Source: an uncultured Bacteroidales bacterium
GTDB taxonomy: Bacteria; Bacteroidota; Bacteroidia; Bacteroidales; Paludibacteraceae
Direction: 5' to 3'
Assembly (NCBI GenBank): GCA_900317745.1
Contig: ONHW01000005.1
Span: 62,001-126,000, forward strand
DNA: 64,000 nt
The stretch's first letter is position 1. Each line of letters starts with the position of its first letter. Of the stretch, positions 38,186-50,731 are shown one piece after another. Under the pieces are notes generated by a model, which was not told the DNA's origin, searched no databases, and saw only the letters and a list, made by a program, of their open reading frames with translations. The translations under genes and the position numbers were made by a program.

Positions 38186-38244
38186 GGTTTTATGGGTTTT
38201 TGTTTATTTTTTTACGCACCAGTACTAATTTCCATTCAAAAACT

Positions 38245-38351
38245 CACTTTCTCTCACATTTCTTCTCATATGATTTGCTTTTTTGATATTTTTTTCGTAT
38301 CTTTGTAGCGTCTTTCCCGAATGGGATGGACAAATTACATAAAAGGCGTTT
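38245..38351. repeat. Direct repeat copy 1 (promoter plus RNA 5' leader)
   Basis: About 107 bp, from CACTTTCTCTCACATTTCTT through the -7 element to CATAAAAGGCGTTT, highly similar to 40309-40416. The two copies flank a segment of about 2 kb with the AlbA_2 gene and a gene remnant. Confidence 0.85.
38274..38305 (+). promoter_or_regulatory. Bacteroidetes-type promoter of the AlbA_2 gene
   Basis: TTTG 38274-38277, 20 nt, TATCTTTG 38298-38305. It predicts a structured leader of about 190 nt before the ATG at 38506, including a perfect 7-bp hairpin (GTCGTAC with GTACGAC, 38420-38437). Confidence 0.85.
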
Positions 38352-38505
38352 GTCCTGTCGATCGGCTTAGCAGTGCAATAAGTTGCTTTGCAATAAACGC
38401 TCTGGTAGATGCGTGACCGTCGTACTTTTGTACGACTGAAACAAACTTTGCACGAAATTAGCGTGCGACACGAAACTAAAAAGTAGAATCATTCGAGCAA
38501 CCACA

Positions 38506-39939
38506 ATGAATAACGAGAATCAAAATATTGAATACAAACGGATATGGCAAGATGATAATCTGAAATCCGTCTGCGCTTTTGCCAACTCGCAAGGTGGTAT
38601 GATGTATATTGGTATTGACGACGATGGTCAAGTGCTGGGGCTCGATAATGTTCATAAATGGCAAGAAGACATACCTAACAAGATTGTGCAGAACCTTGGT
38701 ATCGTATGTGAAATTAACACCCAAGAGGAGTTCGGTAAAACATATCTGGAGATTAGCGTCCTGCCAAGCAATGTACCTATTTCTTACAAGGGTATCTACT
38801 ATGTCCGTTCGGGTGCAACCAAGCAAGAACTGAAAGGAACAGCCCTACAACAGTTCCTATTGGTAAAGATGGGTAAGAGTTGGGATGATATTGTTTGCGA
38901 AGGAGCAACAATGGAAGATATTGACCGCCACGCTATTGATTATTTCTTGCGCAAGTCAGCGGATTACGGTCGTATGCCGGGGCTATCGCCAAGTGACTCT
39001 ACAGAGATTGTTCTTGACAATTTGGATTTGCTAACCTCTACCGGAGAACTGAAGAACGCAGCTGTTTTACTCTTTGGCAAGCGTCCAAGCCGGTTCTTCT
39101 CCGGTATTGATTTTCGTATTTGTCGTTTGGGTAATAGCGAGTCCGACATCATTGTGCAAGATATGGTTTCGGGTAATCTGATTGAGATGGCAGACAAAGT
39201 AATGGATATTCTCAAAGCCAAGTACCTCTATTCTCCTATTCATTATCAAGGTTTGCAACGAATTGAACCACTGGAGATTCCTGAAGATTCTCTGCGAGAG
39301 GCAATCTTCAATGCTATTATCCACAAGGACTACATGCGTGGAGTGGACATCCAAATGAAAGTTTATGCCGATTCTTTGTGGTTATGGAATAATGGCAATT
39401 TGCCGGAGAGCTACACGGTTGAGACATTATTGATTCCGCATTCATCACGTCCGCGCAACCCCAAAATAGCCAATGCTTTTTTCCGCGCGGGATTTATTGA
39501 ATCGTGGGGCCGAGGTATTGAAAAGATACGCAATGCCGGAAACACAAAAGGAATGTCGGCGCCTGTTATCCAAACCGAAATGGGCGGTTTGTCTGTCCGC
39601 TTTTTCCGTGCCGGTTTGCCGCAGACATCAGATGTTAATGGTACAAGCGGTACAAGTGATATAACCTTACAACCTTACAACCTTACAAGCTCATGCGGTA
39701 ACCCGTTGAAAAATAAGGGAGACAACCTTACAACCATTCAAGCTAACAACCTTACAAGCTTGATGAGTCAGATAACTGATTTTTGTGCTCAATGGCGTTC
39801 TTTGAGTGAGATTGCCGAACATGTACAACGCAGTCGTCAGTATCTTCGTGGCGAGGTTATTCCTCAGATGTTTGATGTTTTGGAACGCAAGTATGACTCG
39901 CCCACTCATCCTAAACAGCAATATAGAGCTAAACGATAG
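38506..39939 (+). CDS. AlbA_2/Schlafen-like domain ATP-binding protein (RecG-like regulator)
   Basis: A 477-residue protein. The N-terminal AlbA_2 (Schlafen AlbA) nucleic-acid-binding domain is at about 4-115 (IEYKRIWQDDNLKSVCAFAN, GGMMYIGIDDDGQVLG, YYVRSGATKQEL). A central HATPase_c_4-type region is at about 250-360 (LREAIFNAIIHKDY, FFRAGFIESWGRGIEKI). A C-terminal winged-helix-like part is at about 420-477 (SLSEIAEHVQRSRQYLRGEV). A repetitive Asn/Leu/Thr linker at about 385-420 is encoded by AACCTTAC octamers. Such proteins are common in defence islands and as transcriptional regulators; the exact role is unknown. It has its own promoter and a structured leader. Confidence 0.88.
   Translation: MNNENQNIEYKRIWQDDNLKSVCAFANSQGGMMYIGIDDDGQVLGLDNVHKWQEDIPNKIVQNLGIVCEINTQEEFGKTYLEISVLPSNVPISYKGIYYVRSGATKQELKGTALQQFLLVKMGKSWDDIVCEGATMEDIDRHAIDYFLRKSADYGRMPGLSPSDSTEIVLDNLDLLTSTGELKNAAVLLFGKRPSRFFSGIDFRICRLGNSESDIIVQDMVSGNLIEMADKVMDILKAKYLYSPIHYQGLQRIEPLEIPEDSLREAIFNAIIHKDYMRGVDIQMKVYADSLWLWNNGNLPESYTVETLLIPHSSRPRNPKIANAFFRAGFIESWGRGIEKIRNAGNTKGMSAPVIQTEMGGLSVRFFRAGLPQTSDVNGTSGTSDITLQPYNLTSSCGNPLKNKGDNLTTIQANNLTSLMSQITDFCAQWRSLSEIAEHVQRSRQYLRGEVIPQMFDVLERKYDSPTHPKQQYRAKR
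39663..39755 (+). repeat. Octamer repeats AACCTTAC inside the AlbA_2 gene
   Basis: Three perfect tandem copies at 39663-39686 and further copies at 39724-39731 and 39748-39755. Eight is not a multiple of three, so gain or loss of one unit would shift the reading frame ahead of the C-terminal domain, a pattern seen in phase-variable genes. Confidence 0.8.
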
Positions 39940-40041
39940 ATTAGTCCATCGAAAGATTCATAGACTTGTTCACAGGACTACTTACACACCGATTCACGCT
40001 GATCACATGAAAGACGAAATAGTTTTATAGAATCCAACTGA
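39940..40041. other. Short non-coding gap after the AlbA_2 gene
   Basis: No gene, promoter or terminator recognised. It may contain decayed sequence belonging to the remnant that follows. Confidence 0.5.
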
Positions 40042-40245
40042 CGCAAAATTTGCGACACCCTACGTTCTTCCGGTCTTGAACCGATTGATACGCACATTTG
40101 GAAAAATGCGTCGCACGATAGGTGGCTAATCATTGATGATACAGTTTATCACTGCGGTCATTCGCTCAAAGATATGGGGCAAAAACTATGTGCAGTATCT
40201 TTGTTATCCATCGATGCGGAAGATATACTGAAGCACGTACGATAA
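40042..40245 (+). pseudogene. C-terminal remnant of an ORF6N / PLD-like domain protein
   Basis: A 67-codon open stretch without a usable start, bounded upstream by an in-frame TGA at 40039. It encodes THIWKNASHDRWLIIDDTVY followed by HCGHSLKDMGQKLCAVSLL. The 'HDRxLIID-xVYHxGxSLKDxGKK' pattern is the PLD-like (HxK-type) C-terminal motif that I recall from ORF6N-domain proteins of Bacteroidetes. The N-terminal ORF6N domain is missing, so this is a decayed gene fragment. A normal terminator still follows 17 nt after its stop codon. Confidence 0.65.
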
Positions 40246-40262
40246 ATCTGCACCCCATCCCC

Positions 40263-40288
40263 ACGAGCATTCCGGTGCTCGTTTTTTT
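40263..40288 (+). terminator. Rho-independent terminator
   Basis: ACGAGCA pairs with TGCTCGT around a 6-nt loop, followed by seven T residues. It ends transcripts from the AlbA_2/remnant segment. Confidence 0.88.
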
Positions 40289-40308
40289 GCGGCTTGGACA
40301 TAAAAATG

Positions 40309-40416
40309 CACTTTCTCTCACATTTCTTCTCATAAGATTTGCTTTTTTGATATTTTTTTCGTACCTTTGTAGCGTCTTTCCAGAGAGGGGACTGACAAAT
40401 GACATAAAAGGCGTTT
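40309..40416. repeat. Direct repeat copy 2 (promoter plus RNA 5' leader)
   Basis: Matches 38245-38351 through promoter and early transcribed region (AGCGTCTTTCC, CATAAAAGGCGTTT). Here it drives the candidate RNA at 40377. Confidence 0.85.
40338..40369 (+). promoter_or_regulatory. Bacteroidetes-type promoter of the candidate leader RNA
   Basis: TTTG 40338-40341, 20 nt, TACCTTTG 40362-40369. It lies in the repeated block and predicts a start near 40377. Confidence 0.85.
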
Positions 40417-40636
40417 ATTGACGCTTGTTTTGGCGGTTAGAAACTTCGCAACTTTCAAAAACTCAGTTCAAAACAATGCAACAATAGATGTCTGCGTTGG
40501 GTATATAACTGCACCTGTTAGGGGGTACTATATACTTATGCAGCGTAGGCTCTGTGTTGCTTGTATCTGACTGAGATAGGCAATGCGAAGGCCTCTAACC
40601 GCAGGACAAGCAAAATTACAGGTCCTGCGCTTTTTG
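40377..40636 (+). ncRNA. Candidate structured leader RNA ending in an intrinsic terminator
   Basis: About 260 nt between a strong promoter and a perfect terminator (CGCAGGAC 40600-40607 with GTCCTGCG 40622-40629, then CTTTTT). Internal pairings: CTGC + GTATATA with TATATAC + GCAG (40493-40545 region), and TTGC + TATC with GATA + GCAA (40558-40583 region), flanked by AGGC/GCCT. No ORF fills it. It could be a free small RNA or a leader attenuating the 93-residue ORF that starts 26 nt after the terminator. It may match an existing Rfam family; I could not check. Confidence 0.6.
40600..40636 (+). terminator. Rho-independent terminator of the candidate leader RNA
   Basis: Perfect 8-bp stem CGCAGGAC/GTCCTGCG with a 14-nt loop, followed by CTTTTTG. 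It stands 26 nt before the ATG at 40662. Confidence 0.85.
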
Positions 40637-40661
40637 TGTATGTACCTATACGAAGTAAATC

Positions 40662-40943
40662 ATGGCTAATTGGCAAGACATACGAGCATTAGAAGAACGA
40701 ATCTACGAGCAAGTAGAGGAGTTTCTGAATAATCAGGAGGCTTATGCTATGCCTGTGCTGAACGTCTATCTGGATCATGACGACATGACCTACAAGGCTG
40801 CCGCCGAAGACGGATTGCAAGGCACAGAAGATGAAGGCATTTATCCGATTCCGGAACTCATCCGCATGGGTGATGATGGCAAGAAAGAGCCTGATATTGA
40901 TAAGATTAGCGATGTAGCTAATAGTTGGATATTTTTAGATTGA
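40662..40943 (+). CDS. Small acidic hypothetical protein
   Basis: 93 residues, strongly acidic (roughly 27 Asp/Glu against about 9 Lys/Arg). It begins MANWQDIRALEERIYEQVEE and contains PVLNVYLDHDDMTYKAAAED and IYPIPELIRMGDDGK. No domain recognised; mainly helical by appearance. It lies between two candidate structured RNAs and upstream of the restriction-modification operon. Acidity and location make a DNA-mimic or modulator role conceivable, but that is speculation. It is probably transcribed by read-through of the terminator at 40600 from the promoter at 40338. Confidence 0.75.
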   Translation: MANWQDIRALEERIYEQVEEFLNNQEAYAMPVLNVYLDHDDMTYKAAAEDGLQGTEDEGIYPIPELIRMGDDGKKEPDIDKISDVANSWIFLD

Positions 40944-41014
40944 AATATAAGAAACAGAAATTGATTAACTAACATATAAAATTCGCATAGTCAAATAGGC
41001 ATATACCTTGAGCA

Positions 41015-41122
41015 GCAAGTCGGCAAAACAAAACTGAAAACAAGGAGATATATGTCCCTGCTATCCGTGTGTTGCATGGGGAAGCGGGGTATTGTTTTCA
41101 AGTTTGCCGACTGTGCTTTTTT
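41015..41122 (+). ncRNA. Candidate long-hairpin RNA upstream of the restriction-modification operon
   Basis: One extended hairpin with four helices: AGTCGGCAAA (41018-41027) with TTTGCCGACT (41103-41112); TGAAAACAA (41035-41043) with TTGTTTTCA (41092-41100); CCCTGC (41056-41061) with GCGGGG (41084-41089); CCGTG with CATGG at the tip. GCA/TGC extends the base across a bulge. Six T residues follow, so the 3' end looks like an intrinsic terminator. No coding potential. Could act as an attenuator of the methyltransferase genes or as an independent RNA. Confidence 0.65.
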
Positions 41123-41135
41123 CTCATCAGAGATC

Positions 41136-41168
41136 AACCGGATAGTACACGCTATCCGGTTTTTTTTG
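41136..41168 (+). terminator. Rho-independent terminator directly before the methyltransferase operon
   Basis: Perfect 10-bp stem AACCGGATAG/CTATCCGGTT with a 6-nt loop and eight T residues, ending 12 nt before the ATG at 41180. No promoter is recognisable between it and the operon. Confidence 0.92.
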
Positions 41169-41179
41169 ATTTTTGAAGA

Positions 41180-42250
41180 ATGAAAAAATATACAGTATTA
41201 GATCTATTCTGTGGTTGTGGTGGAATTAGTTATGGTTTTGAGCTTGCTGGGTTCAAAATCATAGGTGGTATCGATTTCAATGAAGATGCCACCAAAACAT
41301 TCAAACACAATTTTAAGGACGCGAAGGTTCGTCATGGTTACATAGAAAAAGTAACCGATGACGAAGTCCTGAGAGATTATGGAGGTGTTGATGTAATAGT
41401 AGGCGGACCTCCCTGTCAAGGATTCTCTACCGCTAATAGATGGCAAAAAGAAGAGGATGATCCTCGTAATAAGTTATTCTTTGAGTATATTCGATTTGTT
41501 AAATTATTGCGTCCCAAGATTATTCTCATAGAGAACGTCCGTGGTATATTGACGCGCAACAATGGCTATGCAAAAGAGCGTATTACTACCATTCTTGGAG
41601 AAGAAGGGTATTCTTTAAACATGCAAGTGCTTGATGCCTCTGAGTATGGTGTACCTCAAAATCGAAAACGCGCCATTATCGTGGGTGTTCGTAACGATTA
41701 CAAGGACATGCTTTTTGATTTTGCGAAACTCAAAAAGAAACCCAAGGTTACCGTTGAAGATGCGATAGGAGAATTGTATCAGTTTGAACAAGAGAATCCT
41801 GAAAACAAAATCCTTACTGAGAAGCCATCTACTCAATACCGGAAATATCTAAGAGCGACCGATAATGAAGTATTATCGCACGATGTGCGTTATCCCGCGG
41901 ATATCGTGCAACGCCGTATCAGTTTTGTTCCGCAAGGAGGAAACTGGGAAGATGTTCCTGCAGAGTTATGGAAGAACAACCGTCAGAACCGACATTCGTC
42001 AGCCTACAAACGTTTAGATCCGAACACACAATCGTGCACGATTGATACTGGAAATGCACATAGCAACTACTTCCATCCCCTGTTTAATCGTATTCCGAGT
42101 GTCAGGGAATCTGCTCGTTTGCAATCGTTCTCAGATAGATTTGAATTTATGGGATCGCGCGGTAGTCAGTATAAACAAGTAGGAAATGCAGTACCACCGC
42201 TACTTGCAAAAGCAATCGCGGATGCTATTATGGAAATTTTGAAGTCATGA
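41180..42250 (+). CDS. DNA (cytosine-5-)-methyltransferase, LlaJI-type M1
   Basis: A 356-residue C5-cytosine methyltransferase. Motif I is DLFCGCGGISYGFELAG (SAM binding), motif IV is GGPPCQGFST with catalytic Cys79, motif VI is ENVRG, motif VIII is QNRKRAIIVG, and motif X is GSRGSQYKQVGNAVPPLL. Its stop codon overlaps the next methyltransferase start by 4 nt. Two m5C enzymes in tandem before McrB-like and DUF2357 genes is the LlaJI layout, where each enzyme modifies one strand of an asymmetric site. Codon use is visibly more AT-rich than in the flanking PULs. Confidence 0.95.
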   Translation: MKKYTVLDLFCGCGGISYGFELAGFKIIGGIDFNEDATKTFKHNFKDAKVRHGYIEKVTDDEVLRDYGGVDVIVGGPPCQGFSTANRWQKEEDDPRNKLFFEYIRFVKLLRPKIILIENVRGILTRNNGYAKERITTILGEEGYSLNMQVLDASEYGVPQNRKRAIIVGVRNDYKDMLFDFAKLKKKPKVTVEDAIGELYQFEQENPENKILTEKPSTQYRKYLRATDNEVLSHDVRYPADIVQRRISFVPQGGNWEDVPAELWKNNRQNRHSSAYKRLDPNTQSCTIDTGNAHSNYFHPLFNRIPSVRESARLQSFSDRFEFMGSRGSQYKQVGNAVPPLLAKAIADAIMEILKS

Positions 42251-43287
42251 AGATAATAGATTTATTTTGTGGAATCGGAGGTTTGAGTCTCGGTTTTGAA
42301 CAAGCCGGTTTTGAAGTTGTTTCCGCTGTGGACATGTGGGAAGATGCCGTTAAGACATATAACCACAATCGGGAGCAGAAAGTGGCTCAGGTTATTTCTG
42401 TCGAGGACTACAACGACCTCGTATTACCAACCGTTCTTGCACATCAAGGACATATTACCGGTATTATTGGAGGTCCCCCTTGTCAAGGTTTCTCAACTGT
42501 AGGTCGTCGTGTGGTAGATGATCCTCGTAATAAAATGTACCTTGAGTTCTATAAGGCCGTTAAGTTGGCTAAACCTGACTTCTTTGTCATCGAGAACGTA
42601 AAGGGCATGTTAACATTGAACAAAGGTGCATTTGTGAAAGATTTGTTAGCTCGCTTTGGCAAAGAAGGTGTTGATGGCGAGAAAGGGTTAGGATATACTA
42701 TTTCTTATCAATTAGTGAACGCAGCAGACTATGGTGTTCCTCAAAATAGATACCGTGTATTCTATGTCGGAATAAAAAACAAAAAGTTTGTTTTCCCTGA
42801 ACCATTTGGATATCAATTAACCGCTAAAGATGGTATTAGTGACTTGTTGCACTCTACGAACGAATACTACGGCTCTGAACCTGTAAATGATTTCCAGAGA
42901 GCAATGCGCGGAAACATGACGCATCCAATCAATCAAGATTACACAGACCATAGCCAACAAACTATTGATATTATCAGTAAAATTCCTGATGGCGGTAACA
43001 TTCGGAGTTTACCCCGTGAGTATTGGGAAGTACGAAAGTATAATAAGGCATTTGAAAGGATGGGAACTTTCAAGCCATCTAATACAATAGATACGGGCCA
43101 TAGAAATTATTTCCACTATGCAGAACCACGTATCCCCACATTGAGGGAGTCTGCCCGATTACAGAGTTTCCCAGATTCCTTTGAAGTGTTAGGTACTCGT
43201 GGTAGTCAGTATAAACAAGTCGGAAATGCAGTACCGCCTATGTTGGCTTATGTTATTGCACAGAATATCAAACAAATCCTAGAATAA
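42247..43287 (+). CDS. DNA (cytosine-5-)-methyltransferase, LlaJI-type M2
   Basis: A second C5-cytosine methyltransferase of 346 residues. Motif I is DLFCGIGGLSLGFEQAG, motif IV is GGPPCQGFSTVGRRVV with catalytic Cys79, motif VI is ENVKG, motif VIII is QNRYRVFYVG, and motif X is GTRGSQYKQVGNAVPPML. It overlaps M1 by ATGA. The target-recognition region (about 190-270) differs from that of M1, as expected if each reads a different strand of a non-palindromic site. M1 and M2 share length and motif placement and are likely old paralogues. Confidence 0.95.
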   Translation: MKIIDLFCGIGGLSLGFEQAGFEVVSAVDMWEDAVKTYNHNREQKVAQVISVEDYNDLVLPTVLAHQGHITGIIGGPPCQGFSTVGRRVVDDPRNKMYLEFYKAVKLAKPDFFVIENVKGMLTLNKGAFVKDLLARFGKEGVDGEKGLGYTISYQLVNAADYGVPQNRYRVFYVGIKNKKFVFPEPFGYQLTAKDGISDLLHSTNEYYGSEPVNDFQRAMRGNMTHPINQDYTDHSQQTIDIISKIPDGGNIRSLPREYWEVRKYNKAFERMGTFKPSNTIDTGHRNYFHYAEPRIPTLRESARLQSFPDSFEVLGTRGSQYKQVGNAVPPMLAYVIAQNIKQILE

Positions 43288-43289
43288 GT

Positions 43290-44036
43290 ATGAGAGTAGT
43301 AATTCCAAATAATACATACAAGGGGATTGCTGATGGATCTAGTTTAACCAATGATAGACGTAAACAGATTCTATCTATATACGATTTTGTCAATACTTTA
43401 GGCAACGAGCCATTAACATACAAATCCCTACAAGAGAGAGTGGCAGATGAAGATTACGGCATATCTGATAGTGCCATCCGAACTTTCTTCCCACTATTAG
43501 GAAAATTGGGGTTCGTTGATTACAAAGATACTTTCCCTGCATGTGAACTATTCACAAAGACAGGAAAAGTGTTTATGGAAACTTTCAAATCTTTGCTTTA
43601 TGCGGAAGATCTTCATCCTCAAAACAAGCGACTGATTGATGAAATAAACCATTGCTTAACAACTATCCAAAGATATGGCCTCTTGTACATGAATAGCCAA
43701 GAAGAATTTAAACAACATGGCATTTGGCTCGCTCTTGCTATCTTAAAACAGGAGCAGGAAATATATTGGTCTGAGTTTTTATTCTTCCTGCATCTGTGTA
43801 AAGACAAGCATATGTCTATCAAAGATGCCGCAAAAGAGGTTAAAGCGAATAGATTAAAGAATGTAGAGTACGAATACTATAATTCAGATAACAAGCCTAT
43901 AGCAGGTACTTCTTACTCGTACACGCATGCTTTTCTCGAAGAAGCCGGTATCCTCCGTGACATCGAAGTTAATCACTCTCTATTGAACGAGGGTATGTTT
44001 GATTTTATCGAATTAATTGACAACTACTATGAATAA
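43290..44036 (+). CDS. Restriction-operon protein of unknown function, winged-helix-like
   Basis: 248 residues, no signal peptide or membrane span. It begins MRVVIPNNTYKGIADGSSLT. A segment at about 40-85 (YKSLQERVADEDYGISDSAI, then LLGKLGFVDY) looks like a winged helix. The middle is helical (WLALAILKQEQEIYWSEF), and the C-terminus is AGILRDIEVNHSLL. It starts 2 nt after M2 and its 3' end overlaps the McrB-like gene, so it belongs to the operon. It may supply DNA recognition or control; no family name can be given. Confidence 0.8.
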   Translation: MRVVIPNNTYKGIADGSSLTNDRRKQILSIYDFVNTLGNEPLTYKSLQERVADEDYGISDSAIRTFFPLLGKLGFVDYKDTFPACELFTKTGKVFMETFKSLLYAEDLHPQNKRLIDEINHCLTTIQRYGLLYMNSQEEFKQHGIWLALAILKQEQEIYWSEFLFFLHLCKDKHMSIKDAAKEVKANRLKNVEYEYYNSDNKPIAGTSYSYTHAFLEEAGILRDIEVNHSLLNEGMFDFIELIDNYYE

Positions 44037-45744
44037 GGAAACCATTGAAGGCAACATTAGAGATAGTTTATCTCGTGCCTTAAAATTAATGAATGGCGAG
44101 GATGTCCTTACGTCCATGGCAAACACTATTCTCTTCCAATCCAACAATGCAAAGGACTTTGTATGGGGATCTGTGAAGGCTTTGCACAAAGAAGGTGTAT
44201 TTAGAGAACTATTTGACTCAAAATGGAAGAAACGTTGGTATAACAATTACATTCTTATCAATGATTGTTATGTGGCTTGCACTACACCAGATGGAACAGA
44301 TGGTGATACCATTGGCATGTATGATGACGAATTCCTAAATGATAATTTCCGAGTTGATGGCGGAATATTGGATGTTAAGAAATTTGCCAAAGCTGTTAAT
44401 GATGTATATGCAGATCGCTATAAAGTAGTCATTGAAGAAGATAACTTCAAGCTAATTAAGTTACAGAATAAAAAGCAGATAACTCCCATAGTCGAAGTGC
44501 CTGCAATGACATCGCAAGACTATCAATACATGGCAGCCATCAAGACTAAACCATTTTTGATTCTTGGCGGTTTCTCCGGCACAGGTAAGAGTATTGCGGT
44601 TAAGTCGCTCGCGTTTGCCACTTGCCCATGCGATGGATATTTGAACGCATCTGAAACAACTCCGGGGAACTATCTCTTGTTATCCGTAAAACCCAATTGG
44701 CACGATGCAACTGAGATAACCGGATTCCGTTCGTCAGTTAACCATAACTACTACGTCACGGATTATATGAAGTTCGTGATTAAGGCTAAAATGTACGAAG
44801 ATCAAAATGTGCCTTTCTTCGTTTGTTTGGATGAGATGAACTTGGCACCGGTAGAGGAATATTTTGCAGACTTCCTCAGCGTTATCGAAAGCCGCACAAA
44901 GAGACAAGATGGTAGAATCGTCACCGACGCATTGATTTCAAAGAGCGTATTTAACGATTCCAATTATGCGGATGACTTCAACATTTTCCTTGAACTTGGA
45001 ATTCATCCAACGATTGAAGTAAATGATCTCACGGAATTCAATGCCCAATTAAAAGCAAGTGAGGAAGAGGCGTTCTATCAAGAACAATGGCTTGTAGATG
45101 AACTTAAGGAACACGGCATGACTATTCCGCAGAACTTGATCGTTATCGGCACGGTCAATATGGACGACACCACCAATAGTTTCAGCCGTAAGGTGATTGA
45201 CCGCGCCATGACATTTGAGACCGTAGTTGGTGAGTTTGATGTCGATGATTATTTTGCTGATGGTTCAGGTATTCTTATGGAATACTGCCAGAAACCTTCA
45301 AAAGGCGAGTTATATATTTCCGATGAAGTGCGTGCAACGGATTTGGATAGCAATTATTTGAACGATAAGGAGAAAAAGCAAATCATTGACTTCATCAACA
45401 ATATCAATAAAGATCTTGATGGTACTCCGTTCCAAATCAGTTACCGCATTCTCAACGAAACTATCTTACTCTATCGGTCTAAGAAAGAGATAGACCACAT
45501 TATTGGTAGCGGGTTTGAATTAGGTGTTGAATTCTCGCTTGACTTGAATGACATATTCGACGATATCCTGATGCAAAAGATTCTGCCGCGTATTGAAGGC
45601 GATTATGACAAGTGTCATACCGCTATCGAAAACCTAAGTAGACGCGCCAAAGATTCCGAATGGAAACGCAGCATTGACAAATTAGCGTTTATGGAGCGCC
45701 GATTTGGACCTGACAAGAGTGGATTTACTTCATTCTGGAATTAA
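44029..45744 (+). CDS. McrB-like AAA+ NTPase, restriction subunit R1 (LlaJI type)
   Basis: A 571-residue motor subunit. The ATG at 44029 is preferred over an in-frame TTG at 44017. The N-terminal about 150 residues are probably the DNA-recognition part. The AAA+ core has Walker A GGFSGTGKS (Lys187), Walker B FVCLDEMN (Asp268, Glu269) and the McrB-type signature TVNMDDTTNSFSRKVIDRA, which marks the GTP-using McrB branch. Known homologues form hexamers, translocate on DNA and activate the partner nuclease. The nuclease gene follows 3 nt downstream. Confidence 0.9.
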   Translation: MNKETIEGNIRDSLSRALKLMNGEDVLTSMANTILFQSNNAKDFVWGSVKALHKEGVFRELFDSKWKKRWYNNYILINDCYVACTTPDGTDGDTIGMYDDEFLNDNFRVDGGILDVKKFAKAVNDVYADRYKVVIEEDNFKLIKLQNKKQITPIVEVPAMTSQDYQYMAAIKTKPFLILGGFSGTGKSIAVKSLAFATCPCDGYLNASETTPGNYLLLSVKPNWHDATEITGFRSSVNHNYYVTDYMKFVIKAKMYEDQNVPFFVCLDEMNLAPVEEYFADFLSVIESRTKRQDGRIVTDALISKSVFNDSNYADDFNIFLELGIHPTIEVNDLTEFNAQLKASEEEAFYQEQWLVDELKEHGMTIPQNLIVIGTVNMDDTTNSFSRKVIDRAMTFETVVGEFDVDDYFADGSGILMEYCQKPSKGELYISDEVRATDLDSNYLNDKEKKQIIDFINNINKDLDGTPFQISYRILNETILLYRSKKEIDHIIGSGFELGVEFSLDLNDIFDDILMQKILPRIEGDYDKCHTAIENLSRRAKDSEWKRSIDKLAFMERRFGPDKSGFTSFWN

Positions 45745-45747
45745 AGC

Positions 45748-48051
45748 ATGGAGGTTCTTCGGTTACATAATGATCAATATACGATAACCATCTCCACCGC
45801 TACAAGCGGGTCAGCATGGGAACGGTTCGAACGTCGCGTCGGAAATGAGGCGTTGCGTTACTGCGACTATGCCTCGTCCTACGCAAGCAAGTTGTCGCTT
45901 AGTCATCCCAAGGCGCATTTTACTCTGCAACCGGTATCAAACAATGAGGCTACGGAGTGGAAAGAGAAACATCCCGTCCTCTTTGAAACCAATGAGTACC
46001 AGTTTGCTGTTGAGTTCCATAACTCGCTGACGCTTGATGGGAACGAAAAGCACACCCCACACGTGCGTCACCCGCTCAAATCAGTAGTGGATTCCTTCAA
46101 GTTCTATCAAAGCGGCTCCGATAGTGGTTTCCTTGTTGGCTCAATTGATTTCCTTAACTCACCGGGTAAGTTCCGCTTTGCCTTTGAATACTACGACTTG
46201 GAAGGACAATTATGCGAGCAATGGTTTGAACTATATGTGGCATCGCCGAAGTTAGATACCAAGAACGATCTAAAGAAGATTACCGCTCTCATCAATCGGG
46301 AGTACGAAAACTATGTCTTTGACTATCTGACGCTCACGTTCTCCAGCTACAACCTCCAACGCGCGGAACGCAATAACCAAATCATTTGGCTCAGCATATT
46401 CAAGTCAGTTGTGAATCTGTATTTTCGGAACGTACGGTACATTATGCCCAAGCCGAACAACAAACCAATCCGCAGGACATACGTGTCGCGACCGGAACGT
46501 ATCCGCAGATGGAATCAACAGGAAGAAGAACGGTTTAAGAACCTTGGCGCTGATGCTGATAAGCACTTCTTCCGATACGAGCAAACGGAAAATACGGCAG
46601 ACACCAAGGAGAATCGTTTCGTCAAATACTCGCTCCACGTCTTAGGCAAGAAATACCGCCAAGTGTTCAAGGAAGTGCGCAGCCTATATTCTGAAATGGA
46701 TTCTGAGGAGATAGCTGCATTTGAGAACTATAGCCGAATCTTTGCCAATCTGGAGTCCGCTCCGTTCTTCCGTCAAGTAGGCGCGTTCGAGGGATTCCGG
46801 CAAGAGAGCGCTATCCTGCAACAACGAACCGGCTATAGCCAGATATATAAGGCCTGGCTGATGTTACGCAATTCGCTTGATTTGGTGGAAGGCAAGACCG
46901 AAATCGGAATGAAGAAGATATGGGAACTCTACGAGATTTGGTGTTTCCTCATAATGAAACGACTCATCGCCAAGACCCTTTCTATTGACATCGATGCCGA
47001 GCTTGCTAAACCTGCTGACGAACATCCGCGTATCCGAGAAGATAAATCGGAAATGCTCGTATCATTGGCGCAAAGCGATGTGAACCATATCGTGGAATTC
47101 GATGCTCCCAATGGAGATATAGTGCGGTTGGAATACCAACACACCTATAATCGTCGTTCCACTGAAACAAAGACGGTCACCACCGAACAACGTCCAGACA
47201 TCCAAATCACCATCACCAAACCAGATGGATTTGTCTTGACCTATCTCTATGACGCCAAGTACAGAGTGCAAGACGACAAGAAGAGTCAAGAGGAAGACAT
47301 GGATATTGACATCGCCGACTTCCCGTTACCAGACGCGATCAACCAAATGCACCGCTATCGCGACGCCATCTACTATAGTATAAAAGCCGAAGAACGACCG
47401 GAAGCCAAAGAGATCATCGGTGGTTATATTCTCTTCCCCGGGCGCACCTTTGGTGATGCAATTGAGAATCGGTATTTCTATAAGTCAATCGCACAAGTAA
47501 ACATTGGTGCGTTCCCATTGCTACCGGCAGAGGAAGGTGTTGATGGTTTAATACAGTGCGACCTCTTGGAGAAACACTTGCAGGACATCTTACTTAACAA
47601 CACGGCTTACGAGCAAATCAAAGATTCGATCCCGCAGAAAGGTTTGCAATATAACCATGCTATCCATAATCAAACGGAATTGGTTATTGTCAACCAAGCG
47701 AAAGAACTCAAGCGCACGCGTATGGTTGACCAACAAATCTGCTATGCACCTGCTGCTTTTGAAAAGGGTTCATTGCGGCTTGTTCCGGGATACGAAACAA
47801 CCAGATATGCATTGCTGCACAATGGCACAAAGGGAGACTTGTTCGAACTGAAAGATACCGGTGTGCGTATTGCACCTAAAGCAGAGTTGAGCAACAAACT
47901 CGCCATTGATCCGAGTGAACTATCGCACGATTATTACCTCATTTTTGATCTCAAATCAAAGACTCCGTGCGCAACCGAAATCCTCGTACCCAAACGTGGT
48001 GCTCTTACTTCCGCCCCACATTTTATTAAATATAGTGATTTGATTATATAA
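45748..48051 (+). CDS. DUF2357 PD-(D/E)XK nuclease, restriction subunit R2 (LlaJI/McrC-like)
   Basis: A 767-residue protein with an N-terminal DUF2357 region (about 60-330) and a C-terminal PD-(D/E)XK-type nuclease core. Probable metal-site residues are Glu462 in VRLEYQHTYN and Asp502/Lys504 in YDAKYR. It is the functional counterpart of McrC: it binds the McrB-like subunit and cleaves DNA. It ends 4 nt before vsr. Length and partner fit LlaJI R2-like proteins rather than the shorter classical McrC. Confidence 0.88.
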   Translation: MEVLRLHNDQYTITISTATSGSAWERFERRVGNEALRYCDYASSYASKLSLSHPKAHFTLQPVSNNEATEWKEKHPVLFETNEYQFAVEFHNSLTLDGNEKHTPHVRHPLKSVVDSFKFYQSGSDSGFLVGSIDFLNSPGKFRFAFEYYDLEGQLCEQWFELYVASPKLDTKNDLKKITALINREYENYVFDYLTLTFSSYNLQRAERNNQIIWLSIFKSVVNLYFRNVRYIMPKPNNKPIRRTYVSRPERIRRWNQQEEERFKNLGADADKHFFRYEQTENTADTKENRFVKYSLHVLGKKYRQVFKEVRSLYSEMDSEEIAAFENYSRIFANLESAPFFRQVGAFEGFRQESAILQQRTGYSQIYKAWLMLRNSLDLVEGKTEIGMKKIWELYEIWCFLIMKRLIAKTLSIDIDAELAKPADEHPRIREDKSEMLVSLAQSDVNHIVEFDAPNGDIVRLEYQHTYNRRSTETKTVTTEQRPDIQITITKPDGFVLTYLYDAKYRVQDDKKSQEEDMDIDIADFPLPDAINQMHRYRDAIYYSIKAEERPEAKEIIGGYILFPGRTFGDAIENRYFYKSIAQVNIGAFPLLPAEEGVDGLIQCDLLEKHLQDILLNNTAYEQIKDSIPQKGLQYNHAIHNQTELVIVNQAKELKRTRMVDQQICYAPAAFEKGSLRLVPGYETTRYALLHNGTKGDLFELKDTGVRIAPKAELSNKLAIDPSELSHDYYLIFDLKSKTPCATEILVPKRGALTSAPHFIKYSDLII

Positions 48052-48055
48052 AAAT

Positions 48056-48493
48056 ATGCCCGATGTACTCACCCCACAACAACGCCACCGCTGCATGTCG
48101 CATATTCGCAGCAAGGCAACCAAGCCGGAGATACTGGTTCGGAAATGGCTGTGGGCGCACGGGTACAGATACAGGTTGAACGTAAAGAGTGTACCTGGTA
48201 AGCCGGACATAGTGATGCGCAAGTACAGAACGGCAATCTTCGTCAATGGCTGTTTCTGGCACGGACATGAAGGATGCAAATATTTCATAATGCCGAAAAC
48301 AAACACAGCATTTTGGCAAAACAAAATAGAGAACAATCGTCAACGCGACAAGCGGAACTACTACATACTTCTCCAAAATGGTTGGCAAGTGATTGTCCTT
48401 TGGCAATGCGAGCTATCCCATGAAAGGATAGAAAAGACCATGCAAGCCGTAGCACTGTCGCTGAACGTGAGCTTTTTGACGATTGCTAAATAG
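48056..48493 (+). CDS. vsr: Very-short-patch mismatch repair endonuclease Vsr
   Basis: A 145-residue Vsr endonuclease that nicks next to T:G mismatches formed when 5-methylcytosine deaminates. Motifs: MSHIRSKATKPEI, GKPDIV (catalytic Asp51), FVNGCFWHGHEGC (Trp68, His69, His71 match the E. coli numbering) and the C-terminal VIVLWQCEL. Position 64, His in E. coli Vsr, is Asn here, as in a number of homologues I recall. It is the last gene of the operon and repairs the mutagenic by-product of its two methyltransferases. Confidence 0.95.
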   Translation: MPDVLTPQQRHRCMSHIRSKATKPEILVRKWLWAHGYRYRLNVKSVPGKPDIVMRKYRTAIFVNGCFWHGHEGCKYFIMPKTNTAFWQNKIENNRQRDKRNYYILLQNGWQVIVLWQCELSHERIEKTMQAVALSLNVSFLTIAK

Positions 48494-48554
48494 CCTAACA
48501 TTATTAGCATATCATTTGCGGTATGCTTGTCTTGTATATTTTCCACCACCACCT

Positions 48555-48596
48555 TGCACCTTTTGCAAAAAAATACGCAAAAGGTGCATTTTTTTT
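48555..48596 (+). terminator. Rho-independent terminator of the restriction-modification operon
   Basis: Perfect 12-bp stem TGCACCTTTTGC/GCAAAAGGTGCA with a 10-nt loop and eight T residues, 62 nt after the vsr stop codon. Confidence 0.93.
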
Positions 48597-49007: not shown

Positions 49008-49039
49008 TTTGCATAATTGAAGAAAATGTTGTATCTTTG
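49008..49039 (+). promoter_or_regulatory. Bacteroidetes-type promoter of the abiE operon
   Basis: TTTG 49008-49011, 20 nt, TATCTTTG 49032-49039. The -33 region shares an 18-bp run (AAATATTTGCATAATTGA) with the promoter at 50835. It fixes the AbiEi start at 49077, because upstream in-frame ATGs precede the transcription start. Confidence 0.88.
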
Positions 49040-49076
49040 CGTAGATTTTCGAAAATTTGCGGTGATTTTCACTACT

Positions 49077-49838
49077 ATGGCGACAAAAATTAAGCAAATA
49101 ACAGAGCAGACAGGCTTGGATGGTCTATTGTTCGGAAGCTGGATGAACCAGCAAGGAATAGATAGTAAACGGCAGCTTGAATACGTCCAAAGCGGTTGGT
49201 TGGAGCGGATAGCACGCGGCGTGTATAAGTTTGCTGGAAGCCATCCGACGCTCTATAGTGCCATTTCTTGCTACAACACGCAGTTGAACAAACAATGTAT
49301 TGTGGGTGCAAGAAGTGCTATCGAACTACGAGGTTACAGCCATTATGTTCCAATGGGTAAGCCTGTCGCATTTCTTTTTACGGACAATACCCACAAACTG
49401 CCAGAATGGTTACTACTTGGTCAATGGGACATGACAGTCCGTTACCAGACCACCTCATTTCTGGGCGAGGATCTGCTTGGTGTAGAAACGCAGATGGTGG
49501 ATAGTCGCCCATTGTTGGTTTCATCACCGGAAAGGGCAATGCTTGAATGGCTAAACATGCCGAGTATCAATTCTTCGCTACTCGACGTGTATTATGTTAT
49601 GGAGATGTTAGCCACCTTGCGTTCGGACTTAGTACAACAGTTATTGGAGCGATGTACTTCTGTCAAGGCGAAACGCTTGTTTATGTACATGGCTGAAAAA
49701 ACCGGCTTTACGTGGGTAGATGATATAGACAAGACAAAAATAGATTTCGGAAGCGGACGCCGAATGATAGTGCCCAAAGGCAAATATATCAAGCAATATG
49801 ACATGACTATTCCAACCGGTTTAGCAGAATATGAATGA
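49077..49838 (+). CDS. abiEi: AbiEi-type antitoxin (type IV toxin-antitoxin)
   Basis: A 253-residue AbiEi-family antitoxin/transcription repressor. The start at 49077 (MATKIKQITEQTGLDGLLF) is chosen because the -7 element lies upstream inside the longer frame. The N-terminal winged helix is at about 20-55 (RQLEYVQSGWLERIARGVYK), followed by the AbiEi domain with LYSAISCYNTQLNKQCIVGA, ELRGYSHYVPMGKP and SSPERAMLEWLN. AbiEi proteins repress the operon and counteract the AbiEii nucleotidyltransferase. Overlaps the toxin gene by 8 nt. Confidence 0.88.
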   Translation: MATKIKQITEQTGLDGLLFGSWMNQQGIDSKRQLEYVQSGWLERIARGVYKFAGSHPTLYSAISCYNTQLNKQCIVGARSAIELRGYSHYVPMGKPVAFLFTDNTHKLPEWLLLGQWDMTVRYQTTSFLGEDLLGVETQMVDSRPLLVSSPERAMLEWLNMPSINSSLLDVYYVMEMLATLRSDLVQQLLERCTSVKAKRLFMYMAEKTGFTWVDDIDKTKIDFGSGRRMIVPKGKYIKQYDMTIPTGLAEYE

Positions 49839-50731
49839 TGTGTACCAAAACAAAGTGGGGTTACTAATCCGTCTCATGCCTTATGTGATGAACGAAGGCG
49901 TGTTTGCGGTTCATGGAGGTAGCGCAATCAATCTTTTTGTCAAAGACATGCCGCGATATTCGGTGGATATAGACTTGACTTACATGCCATTAGCCGGTCG
50001 TGAGGAGAGTCTCAACGATATATAACAACCACCTCCTCCACATAGCCGAAGAAGCGAAGAAAGGCATACCCGGACTACATATCGTACCCAAATTGGCAAC
50101 GTGCAAACTTCTTTGTGAATATCATGGATTTCAAATAAAAGTTGAGGTAAATCAAACCAAACGTGGTATTGTTGGAGGAAATATATTGACACTGCCTTTG
50201 TGTAATAACGCTAAGACAGAGTTTAGACTTTCTTGCAAGGCACAAATCGTTCCTTTGACACTTCTCTATGGCGGCAAGATAGCAGCAGCTCTATCGCGCC
50301 AACACCCGCGAGACTTGTTTGATGTCAAGTATATGGATGTGCCTTTATCTGAAGTTCGAGAAGGACTCATCTTTTGCCTTTTAGGTAGCGACCGTCCTAT
50401 TCATGAGTCGTTTGCTCCCACTTTGATTGACCAACGAGATACGATGTCGAACCAGTTTGATGGTATGACGGATTTTCAGTTCTCTTATGAGGATTTTGAG
50501 CAAACACGCGCTAAATTGATAGCGGATGTACGTTCGTTGATGACAGACGCCGACAAACAGTTTCTCTTGAGTTTTGAAGCCGTAGAACCATTGTGGGAGA
50601 ACTATGAGTTTGAGTATTTCCAAAACTACCCTTCTGTCCAATGGAAACTGCTCAATCTTGCCAAACTCAAGAAACAGAATCCCGCCAAACTATATGCCGA
50701 AGTGGAGAAACTGCAAGAAATATTTGGCTGA
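49831..50731 (+). pseudogene. abiEii: AbiEii nucleotidyltransferase toxin gene, frameshifted
   Basis: The AbiEii/AbiGii toxin is split over two frames. Frame 1 (49831-50025) holds the nucleotidyltransferase motif VHGGSAINLFVKD and YSVDIDLTYMP, then stops after REESLNDI. The second frame continues as NNHLLHIAEEAKKGIPGLH through LLYGGKIAAALSRQHPRDLFD, the family's conserved later motif, and ends at 50731. The join is near 50018-50024 (GATATATAAC), where one extra base separates the frames. Either a genuine inactivating mutation or a sequencing/assembly error; translation of the second part from GTG at 50000 is possible but would lack the catalytic core. Confidence 0.85.

Follow-up and report, generated by a model that had tools for sequence, protein, structure and literature searches.

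A restriction-modification operon of an uncultured Bacteroidales bacterium probably controlled by two transcription attenuators in series

How a restriction-modification (R-M) system enters a new host without killing it is an old question, and the known answers include controller (C) proteins, which are the helix-turn-helix controllers of restriction systems, and autoregulation by the methyltransferase. Antisense RNA is another known answer (PMC3874152). A stretch of 64,000 nucleotides from an uncultured bacterium of the Paludibacteraceae (contig ONHW01000005.1, positions 62,001 to 126,000), below called the window, raises this question in a particular form. The genome containing it is 2.6 Mb long in 38 contigs (window on G000:C15). 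A six-gene R-M operon at 41180-48493 lies there behind folded RNAs and terminators, and we ask how transcription reaches its first gene, the methyltransferase gene M1.

A sequence-only reading of the locus had placed a promoter at 40338, had seen none directly ahead of M1 and had called the arrangement attenuation-like. The promoter is indeed a perfect Bacteroidota consensus, of which there are just six on the + strand of the 64-kb window. No consensus Bacteroidota promoter is found between 40370 and 41180, where the best candidate is a weak 5/6 + 3/4 match at 40930. A sigma-70 scan returned promoter-like sites no more frequently than in shuffled sequences; its model does not extend to Bacteroidota promoters. 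The data thus support an attenuation-like arrangement without a consensus promoter before M1, and they support the two structured RNAs supposed earlier, which prove to be conserved and show covariation. Two transcription attenuators, one after the other, probably govern this restriction cassette, and the control region is as follows.

40338..40369, + strand: Bacteroidota-type promoter TTTG-N20-TACCTTTG, perfect consensus
40371..40635, + strand: RNA1, a leader of about 265 nt with a long rod and a terminator, its start inferred from the promoter
40410..40424, + strand: 5' stem-loop of RNA1, GGCGTTTATTGACGC, conserved in the 28-copy type A alignment
40423..40431, + strand: 5' strand of the antiterminator helix P0, GCTTGTTTT, pairing with 40603-40611
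40601..40635, + strand: RNA1 terminator, GCAGGAC..GTCCTGC-GC-TTTTT, its 5' arm shared with the 3' strand of the antiterminator
40662..40943, + strand: gene of a 93-residue acidic protein, the common core of a second cassette (pI 4.05; AlphaFold2 pLDDT 86.7)
40985..41122, + strand: RNA2, a structured RNA ending in T6, known from a 10-copy alignment; the window copy is short of part of the 3' domain
41061..41069, + strand: CTATCCGTG strand of RNA2, present in 10 of 10 copies
41136..41169, + strand: strong intrinsic terminator, its T-run stopping 12 nt short of the M1 start

The last terminator, proposed earlier at 41136-41168, is the first-listed match of a simple terminator scan (41136-41161, then T8), which gave 19 sites versus 9.8 +/- 3.0 in shuffles. 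The scan omits the RNA1 terminator, whose loop is longer than 8, and the T6 hairpin. Both are real. A much larger folded RNA has its 3' end in the terminator near 40600, and the hairpin ending at 41122 is the 3' part of the larger conserved RNA at 40985-41122.

RNA1 has the anatomy of an attenuator. Its predicted helix P0, in which GCUUGUUUU (40423-40431) pairs with AGGACAAGC (40603-40611), extends the rod-closing helix P1, and the terminator is formed by pairing of GCAGGAC (40601-40607) with 40622-40628. The 5' arm of the terminator overlaps the rod-closing strand, so terminator and antiterminator are mutually exclusive. In the window copy the modelled energies of the two conformers are close, -105.5 for the antiterminator and -101.1 for the terminator, about 4 kcal/mol apart. 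The window fold as a whole is far from chance (minimum free energy z = -7.3; 0 of 200 shuffles as good). Of ten pairs tested in P0 and at the base of P1, nine are kept in 25-28 of 28 copies and the tenth in 7.

RNA1 is a cis-RNA family with strong covariation and without an Rfam match. The search of Rfam 15 at the gathering threshold found only tRNAs in the window and 14 further loci, and a permissive search of 39900-41250 gave weak snoRNA matches only. The RNAalifold consensus of 28 RNA1 copies contains double-sided changes in 23 of 65 pairs. When the antiterminator form is imposed on the same copies, 95.7% of cells are paired, versus 87.3% after shuffling, and 20 of 60 pairs show double-sided changes; none of 500 shuffles matches it on pairing, double-changed pairs or covariation score. 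The 5' strands pair with their cognate 3' strands at -25.5 kcal/mol on average, compared to -12.9 kcal/mol for strands swapped between loci (112 loci). The corresponding values for 20 order-wide loci are -28.6 and -14.6 kcal/mol.

These changes bear on the view that the repeats are DNA elements, i.e., recombination or phase-variation sites or mobile repeats, with RNA structure being incidental. In its favor are the multi-copy nature of the element, an 88-nt stretch carrying the same promoter that is repeated with 92% identity 2 kb upstream (38238-38325), and two contigs of another genome (G097) that start inside the same element. Compensatory base changes, a fixed orientation relative to the gene and conserved terminators already put this explanation out of favor, and we regard it as scarcely credible.

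The distribution of RNA1 was studied with R1, a covariance model built from 28 RNA1 copies, which matches the window at 40410-40610 with 209 bits. R1 finds 13 copies in the same genome. It was applied to 175 genomes from the family, each with a completeness of 90% or more, and to 295 genomes of the order, with stricter filters in both screens, and matched 117 of the former (19 of 28 genera) and 48 of the latter (30 of 177 sampled genera). Within the genus, blastn finds RNA1 in 134 of 151 genomes, often only as a partial match, and the 331 bases around RNA1 have three near full-length matches of 84-100% identity in the window's own genome along with weaker or partial ones. The analyzed loci, which we designate by L numbers, fall into type A, scoring 137-226 bits and including the window, and a broader tier 2 of approximately 47-113 bits. 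Eighty loci (L118-L197) are among the matches listed in a scan for an exact 23-nt RNA1 motif, and picking them on that motif biases both its apparent conservation and the make-up of tier 2. L108-L117, the own-genome RNA1 copies and L350-L369 were picked by model or blastn score. The records with the motif, among the matches listed, are mostly from uncultured Paludibacteraceae and other Bacteroidales of ruminant and other animal guts.

Six duplicate records were removed first to give a set of 118 RNA1 loci. The strand-swap test (112 loci) and the terminator count (111 loci) had six more near-duplicates or short elements removed, and the latter also left out loci with less than 50 nt of DNA behind the element. 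The -7 motif TAnnTTTG occurs within 110 nt upstream of RNA1 in 60 of 116 loci, versus 159 of 2360 random control windows. A terminator-like hairpin stands right behind RNA1 in 105 of 111 loci, and in the order-wide set a terminator overlaps the antiterminator strand in 18 of 20. A same-strand gene of at least 80 codons (gene calls in the locus surveys are simple open reading frame, ORF, calls) follows in 104 of 118 loci, within 150 nt in 77 of these 104 and at a median distance of 86.5 nt; all 20 order-wide loci have a same-strand ORF within 152 nt.

The genes behind RNA1 are diverse. Among 53 proteins from type A loci without the acidic cassette are parts of type I, II, IIG and III R-M systems (ResIII 8, Eco57I 6, N6_N4_Mtase 5, N6_Mtase 4, Methylase_S 3, TdeIII 2, MmeI 2); here and below, gene-family counts by alignment refer to the 25 most frequent families, and a family not listed is not necessarily absent. 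Exceptions, judged by eye, include five near-identical loci (L101, L103-L106) that begin with an extracytoplasmic-function (ECF) sigma-like gene and two (L090, L091) that begin with large secreted-looking proteins. BspA-type leucine-rich repeats (LRR), as detected by a regular expression in the first two genes, occur in 1 of 31 type A and 29 of 72 tier 2 loci. Type A is the subtype often found ahead of unrelated kinds of restriction genes, and tier 2 the one often found ahead of LRR surface proteins. First genes behind RNA1 include LRR_5 in 26 of 96 cases and glycosyltransferases in five of 96. Neither LRR nor restriction enzymes are among the 25 most frequent families of the 106 genes upstream of RNA1. 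Defense-type families found there (AlbA_2 4, YhcG 3, HEPN 2) fit an accessory-gene neighborhood. Judged by what follows it, RNA1 represents a leader class that is general in Bacteroidales and sits on restriction and surface genes. Its place before diverse defense and cell-surface genes suggests that phage-facing genes share a control exerted through RNA.

A gene of the AlbA_2 family also lies upstream of RNA1 in the window. The Schlafen/AlbA_2 gene at 38506-39939 is preceded by an RNA1-like promoter stretch and a GGCGTTT motif, without the full RNA1 rod (38238-38506). Within this gene there are 8-nt tandem repeats (AACCTTAC-like, 7 registers, 39646-39768), a possible site of phase-variation slippage.

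The acidic gene between the two RNAs belongs to a module of its own. Relatives of its product are present in 34 of 358 genomes of the family, in cassettes of three forms. Type I, as in the window, consists of RNA1, the acidic gene, RNA2 and a terminator; in two type I loci, L259 and L268, RNA1 is replaced by another leader ending in a tRNA-Ala(GGC) gene. This tRNA gene lies directly or shortly ahead of the acidic gene at L259:2876-2950, L268:7791-7865, L326:547-621 and L327:949-1023. Types II and III have a short leader, the acidic gene and a hairpin terminator with a UUGGUC loop, and no RNA1: among the acidic-cassette loci L323-L342, R1 matches L323 alone. The UUGGUC loop is complementary to GACCAA just ahead of the acidic start codon and again after the gene, and both motifs are present in 16 of 16 loci with this hairpin. 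The base beside the second motif covaries with the loop (A-U in seven loci, C-G in nine), and the base beside the first is A in seven, C in six and U in three. In L328 (1319-1855) an ORF begins after the second GACCAA and runs in frame through the terminator into the cargo gene.

The cargo differs between the cassettes. Its 116 proteins (L339 and L342 were excluded from this set) include 25 C5 methyltransferases, and the nuclease families represented are NgoPII, NgoBV, EcoO109I, HaeIII, LlaJI, DUF2357/PDDEXK_7, DUF4420 and Vsr. A same-strand C5 methyltransferase gene is found downstream in 23 of the 25 cassette loci with at least 2 kb of sequence, the exceptions being L338 and L340; L339, L341 and L342 were excluded from this count as partial or dubious. 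Thus, as far as the sequences tell, the acidic protein together with its RNA makes up a cassette that has a strong tie to C5-methyltransferase systems and is reused with unrelated nucleases.

The gap between terminator and cargo matters for the possibility that RNA1 and RNA2 are independent, terminated small RNAs, acting in trans or binding a protein as type III antitoxin RNA or the AbiF-associated RNA does, with the restriction genes using unseen promoters. The latter RNA neutralizes AbiF by direct binding and also lowers its transcription (PMC12373285). That RNA1 and RNA2 are compact, strongly folded and terminated speaks for this possibility. So does a TAnnTTTG between the RNA1 terminator and the first gene in eight of 104 RNA1 loci, which also counts against attenuation. 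However, of the 26 cassette loci with the terminator pattern, 25 show the start of the cargo, and TAnnTTTG is found in none of these 25 gaps, 22 of which are shorter than 45 nt and thus too short for a promoter. The cargo is therefore most simply transcribed through the terminator. Same-strand ORFs close behind RNA1, recorded above for 20 of 20 order-wide and 104 of 118 other loci, point the same way, and different loci carry unrelated cargo, whereas a toxin comes with an antitoxin RNA of its own. We consider independent RNAs improbable.

RNA2 offers a candidate for the second attenuator. Its window fold is far from chance (z = -6.35), and an alignment of 10 copies over 210 columns shows double-sided changes in 13 of 61 pairs. 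Its apical AG[C/U]GGGG pairs with an upstream CCC[U/C]GCU and would also pair perfectly with a downstream CCCC[G/A]CU. This alternative pairing is supported by covariation in the aligned copies, with C-G in L081, L092, L094 and L323 and U-A in L259, L260 and L268; the downstream partner is CUCCACU in L261 (U-A and one further change) and CCCGCGCU, a partial match, in L089. In all ten copies CTATCCG within the CTATCCGTG strand is complementary to the 5' arm of the final terminator. A 43-codon ORF at 41052-41183, with AAGGAG ahead of its start, extends over the 3' half of RNA2 and through the final terminator as far as the start of M1, which it overlaps (ATGA); by eye, its frame is lost in the other copies.

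We can now propose how M1 is reached. Transcription would start at the 40338-40369 promoter, and RNA1 would fold into its long rod. The closing helix P1 with P0 would compete with the terminator for 40601-40607, so that either the antiterminator or the terminator forms. Read-through past the RNA1 terminator would lead to transcription of the acidic gene and RNA2. The apical 3' strand of RNA2 would then have its usual 5' partner to pair with and, in the nine other copies, the downstream partner as an alternative; the downstream pairing would leave CUAUCCG free for the 5' arm of the final terminator. Only transcripts passing this last terminator would reach M1, and the methylase and nuclease genes would consequently be switched on together. 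The switching itself we infer, as we do a part of the acidic protein in control, either by feedback on RNA2 or by guarding against the enzymes.

Several observations weigh against this proposal. P0 is near-invariant in type A (0 of 10 pairs double-changed), and its pair 42-235 fails in 21 of 28 copies; because P0 barely varies, it is mainly P1 that carries the cognate-strand result. Among the five measures taken on the antiterminator form, one, the count of additional pair types, does not surpass shuffles (292 of 500). Terminator and antiterminator overlap by at least 2 nt in 105 of 105 loci and by at least 4 nt in 81 of 105, in a count that has no null model, and the overlap is shorter in tier 2 (at least 4 nt in 53 of 77). 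The RNA energies are model values. The window copy of RNA2 is without about 22 nt that the nine other aligned copies have; the downstream partner is gone with them, and the second switch may therefore be locked or broken here. Searches for a family, sequence or fold match of the acidic protein found none. Two loci, L334 and L335, have the acidic gene and the first motif without the expected hairpin terminator. C5 methyltransferase genes are upstream of the cassette in 0 of 30 rows, a short control given a flank median of 1034 nt. Finally, the independent cassette cases are fewer than the counts suggest because some are near-duplicates, e.g., L325-L327 are identical in protein.

The main rival to local attenuation is processive antitermination, in which the 5' stem-loop or the whole of RNA1 recruits a factor such as a NusG paralogue, and the polymerase then ignores the stacked terminators up to M1. 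The precedent is LoaP, which needs a leader hairpin (dfn) and reads through intrinsic terminators (PMC12691694). There, as with UpxY, a leader RNA stands before accessory operons with intrinsic terminators (same source), and here the stem-loop at 40410-40424 ranks with the best-conserved parts of type A, and up to three terminators precede M1. The genome has one NusG paralogue (G000:C13:35922-36104, L292) besides the stronger NusG match in the window, and of the 34 genes that follow leaders in the order-wide set, one has a NusG match. However, in contrast to LoaP/UpxY, no NusG paralogue lies beside the window leader, and the paralogue's contig carries none of the 13 leaders. Moreover, a local attenuator needs terminator and antiterminator to overlap, as they do where RNA1 ends, and a processive system does not, and the type II and III acidic cassettes have a terminator without RNA1. 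Processive antitermination is a possible explanation, though we judge it rather unlikely; it could also act together with local attenuation.

The six genes behind the final terminator were described correctly by the earlier reading as a tightly packed operon, with neighbors overlapping or sitting a few bases apart.

41180..42250, + strand: M1, C5-cytosine DNA methyltransferase (PF00145, 6e-74; motifs I, IV, VI, VIII, X)
42247..43287, + strand: M2, C5-cytosine DNA methyltransferase (PF00145, 3e-69)
43290..44036, + strand: 248-residue protein, no family match
44029..45744, + strand: AAA+ NTPase, McrB/R1.LlaJI-like (GFSGTGKS and NMDD motifs; PADLOC PDC-M26A)
45748..48051, + strand: DUF2357 and PD-(D/E)XK nuclease, PDDEXK_7 (PF04411, 6.1e-31; PF09823, 2e-26)
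48056..48493, + strand: Vsr mismatch endonuclease (TIGR00632, 4.9e-45)

Pfam, PADLOC and NCBIfam matches back the assignment of the two m5C methyltransferases, the DUF2357 nuclease and Vsr. Both M1 and M2 show the standard C5-cytosine motifs I, IV, VI, VIII and X, and the nuclease has PD at 483 and DAK at 502. The AAA+ gene has an ATG start at 44029 and a TTG at 44017. The searches of the same three databases gave no family for the 248-residue protein, and its label "winged-helix-like" is unconfirmed. Downstream of Vsr there are AbiEi/AbiEii-like type IV toxin-antitoxin genes (49017-50731), of which the AbiEii-like one seems, by eye, to be split into 49831-50025 and 50000-50731 in different frames.

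This operon resembles LlaJI of the Lactococcus plasmid pNP40, which comprises two C5 methyltransferase genes, a McrB-like NTPase subunit and a PD-(D/E)XK subunit and recognizes GACGC/GCGTC (PMC1459862). The window also has tandem C5 methyltransferases, a McrB-like NTPase and a PD-(D/E)XK nuclease subunit, and in a test for R1.LlaJI motifs its AAA+ protein has GxxxxGK(S/T) as GFSGTGKS, with NMDD as a loose, putative version of motif III, N(T)xD. Unlike LlaJI, it adds the 248-residue protein, Vsr, and the RNA attenuators with the acidic gene in front. The LlaJI nuclease family PF09563 (RE_LlaJI) matches no window protein at E<=0.001, and the 116 cassette proteins include two weak matches to it (best 6.9e-06).

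The LlaJI likeness admits another form of control, in which expression would be set by methylation of two promoter sites, GCGTC (40372) and GACGC (40420). The two halves of the LlaJI recognition sequence do lie at the promoter and RNA1 start, and the reference list of PMC1459862 includes a paper on epigenetic control. However, GACGC belongs to the conserved stem-loop of the RNA and is found again ahead of unrelated cargo, and copies L040, L042 and L043 carry TAGCGC instead. Such epigenetic control seems very improbable to us.

The sequence-only reading had tied the RNA elements to LlaJI-type systems. This is not supported, as the restriction and surface genes behind RNA1 are of several kinds. 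From the 23 DUF2357 homologues found outside the own genome, 19 loci were fetched: RNA1 is present in three (L260, L264, L265) and the acidic gene in four (L259, L260, L268, L274), and in 13 of the 19 the fetched DNA, in some cases cut by a contig end, has neither. Homologues without the upstream elements, which the earlier reading had named as evidence against itself, thus exist; they rule out an obligate LlaJI link and leave attenuation standing. In L264 (3441-3670) and L265 (6558-6787), from another genus of the family, a tier 2 RNA1 precedes distant LlaJI-like operons. The same operon as in the window occurs in another genome (G054, L259), with five proteins of 78-97% identity and no Vsr match in the stretch; the acidic gene and RNA2 are kept there and the leader is different. 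Thus, the RNA modules seem to be swapped independently of the restriction enzymes.

RNA-level restraint of defense genes has precedents. Antisense RNAs keep the EcoRI and Eco29kI restriction genes in check (PMC3874152), and AbiF RNA is comparable (PMC12373285). Those RNAs are described for single systems, whereas RNA1 and the acidic cassette turn up again and again with enzymes that are unrelated. A term search of PMC3874152 gives "riboswitch" 0 times and "attenuat" once. Attenuator and riboswitch-type leaders are the closer likeness, having the same order of promoter-proximal RNA, exclusive antiterminator and terminator, and same-strand gene; unlike known leaders of this kind, RNA1 has no Rfam match, its cargo consists largely of restriction and surface genes, and two attenuators appear to stand in series. 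The acidic protein resembles C proteins in being small and encoded ahead of restriction genes. Unlike them, it is very acidic, and its AlphaFold2 model is alpha-beta-beta-beta-alpha, not evidently helix-turn-helix.

Beyond what was noticed earlier, comparison of the loci reveals an order-wide class of leader RNAs with predicted attenuator anatomy and a modular cassette of an acidic protein and RNA. We tentatively suggest, while holding it unlikely in its full extent, that RNA1 may serve as sensor for a regulon spanning the Bacteroidales, where a single signal (phage attack or envelope stress, for example) would flip many copies at once and thereby restriction and variable surface proteins together, and that the acidic cassette may be a universal plug-in controller for the safe gain of unrelated C5-methylating systems. 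The locus offers a testable RNA-level answer to the question of how restriction systems enter safely, one reused with unrelated nuclease families. The RNA1 class points to a candidate regulon made up of phage-facing genes, those for restriction, LRR proteins of the surface and glycans, and the signal that its members may share can now be sought.

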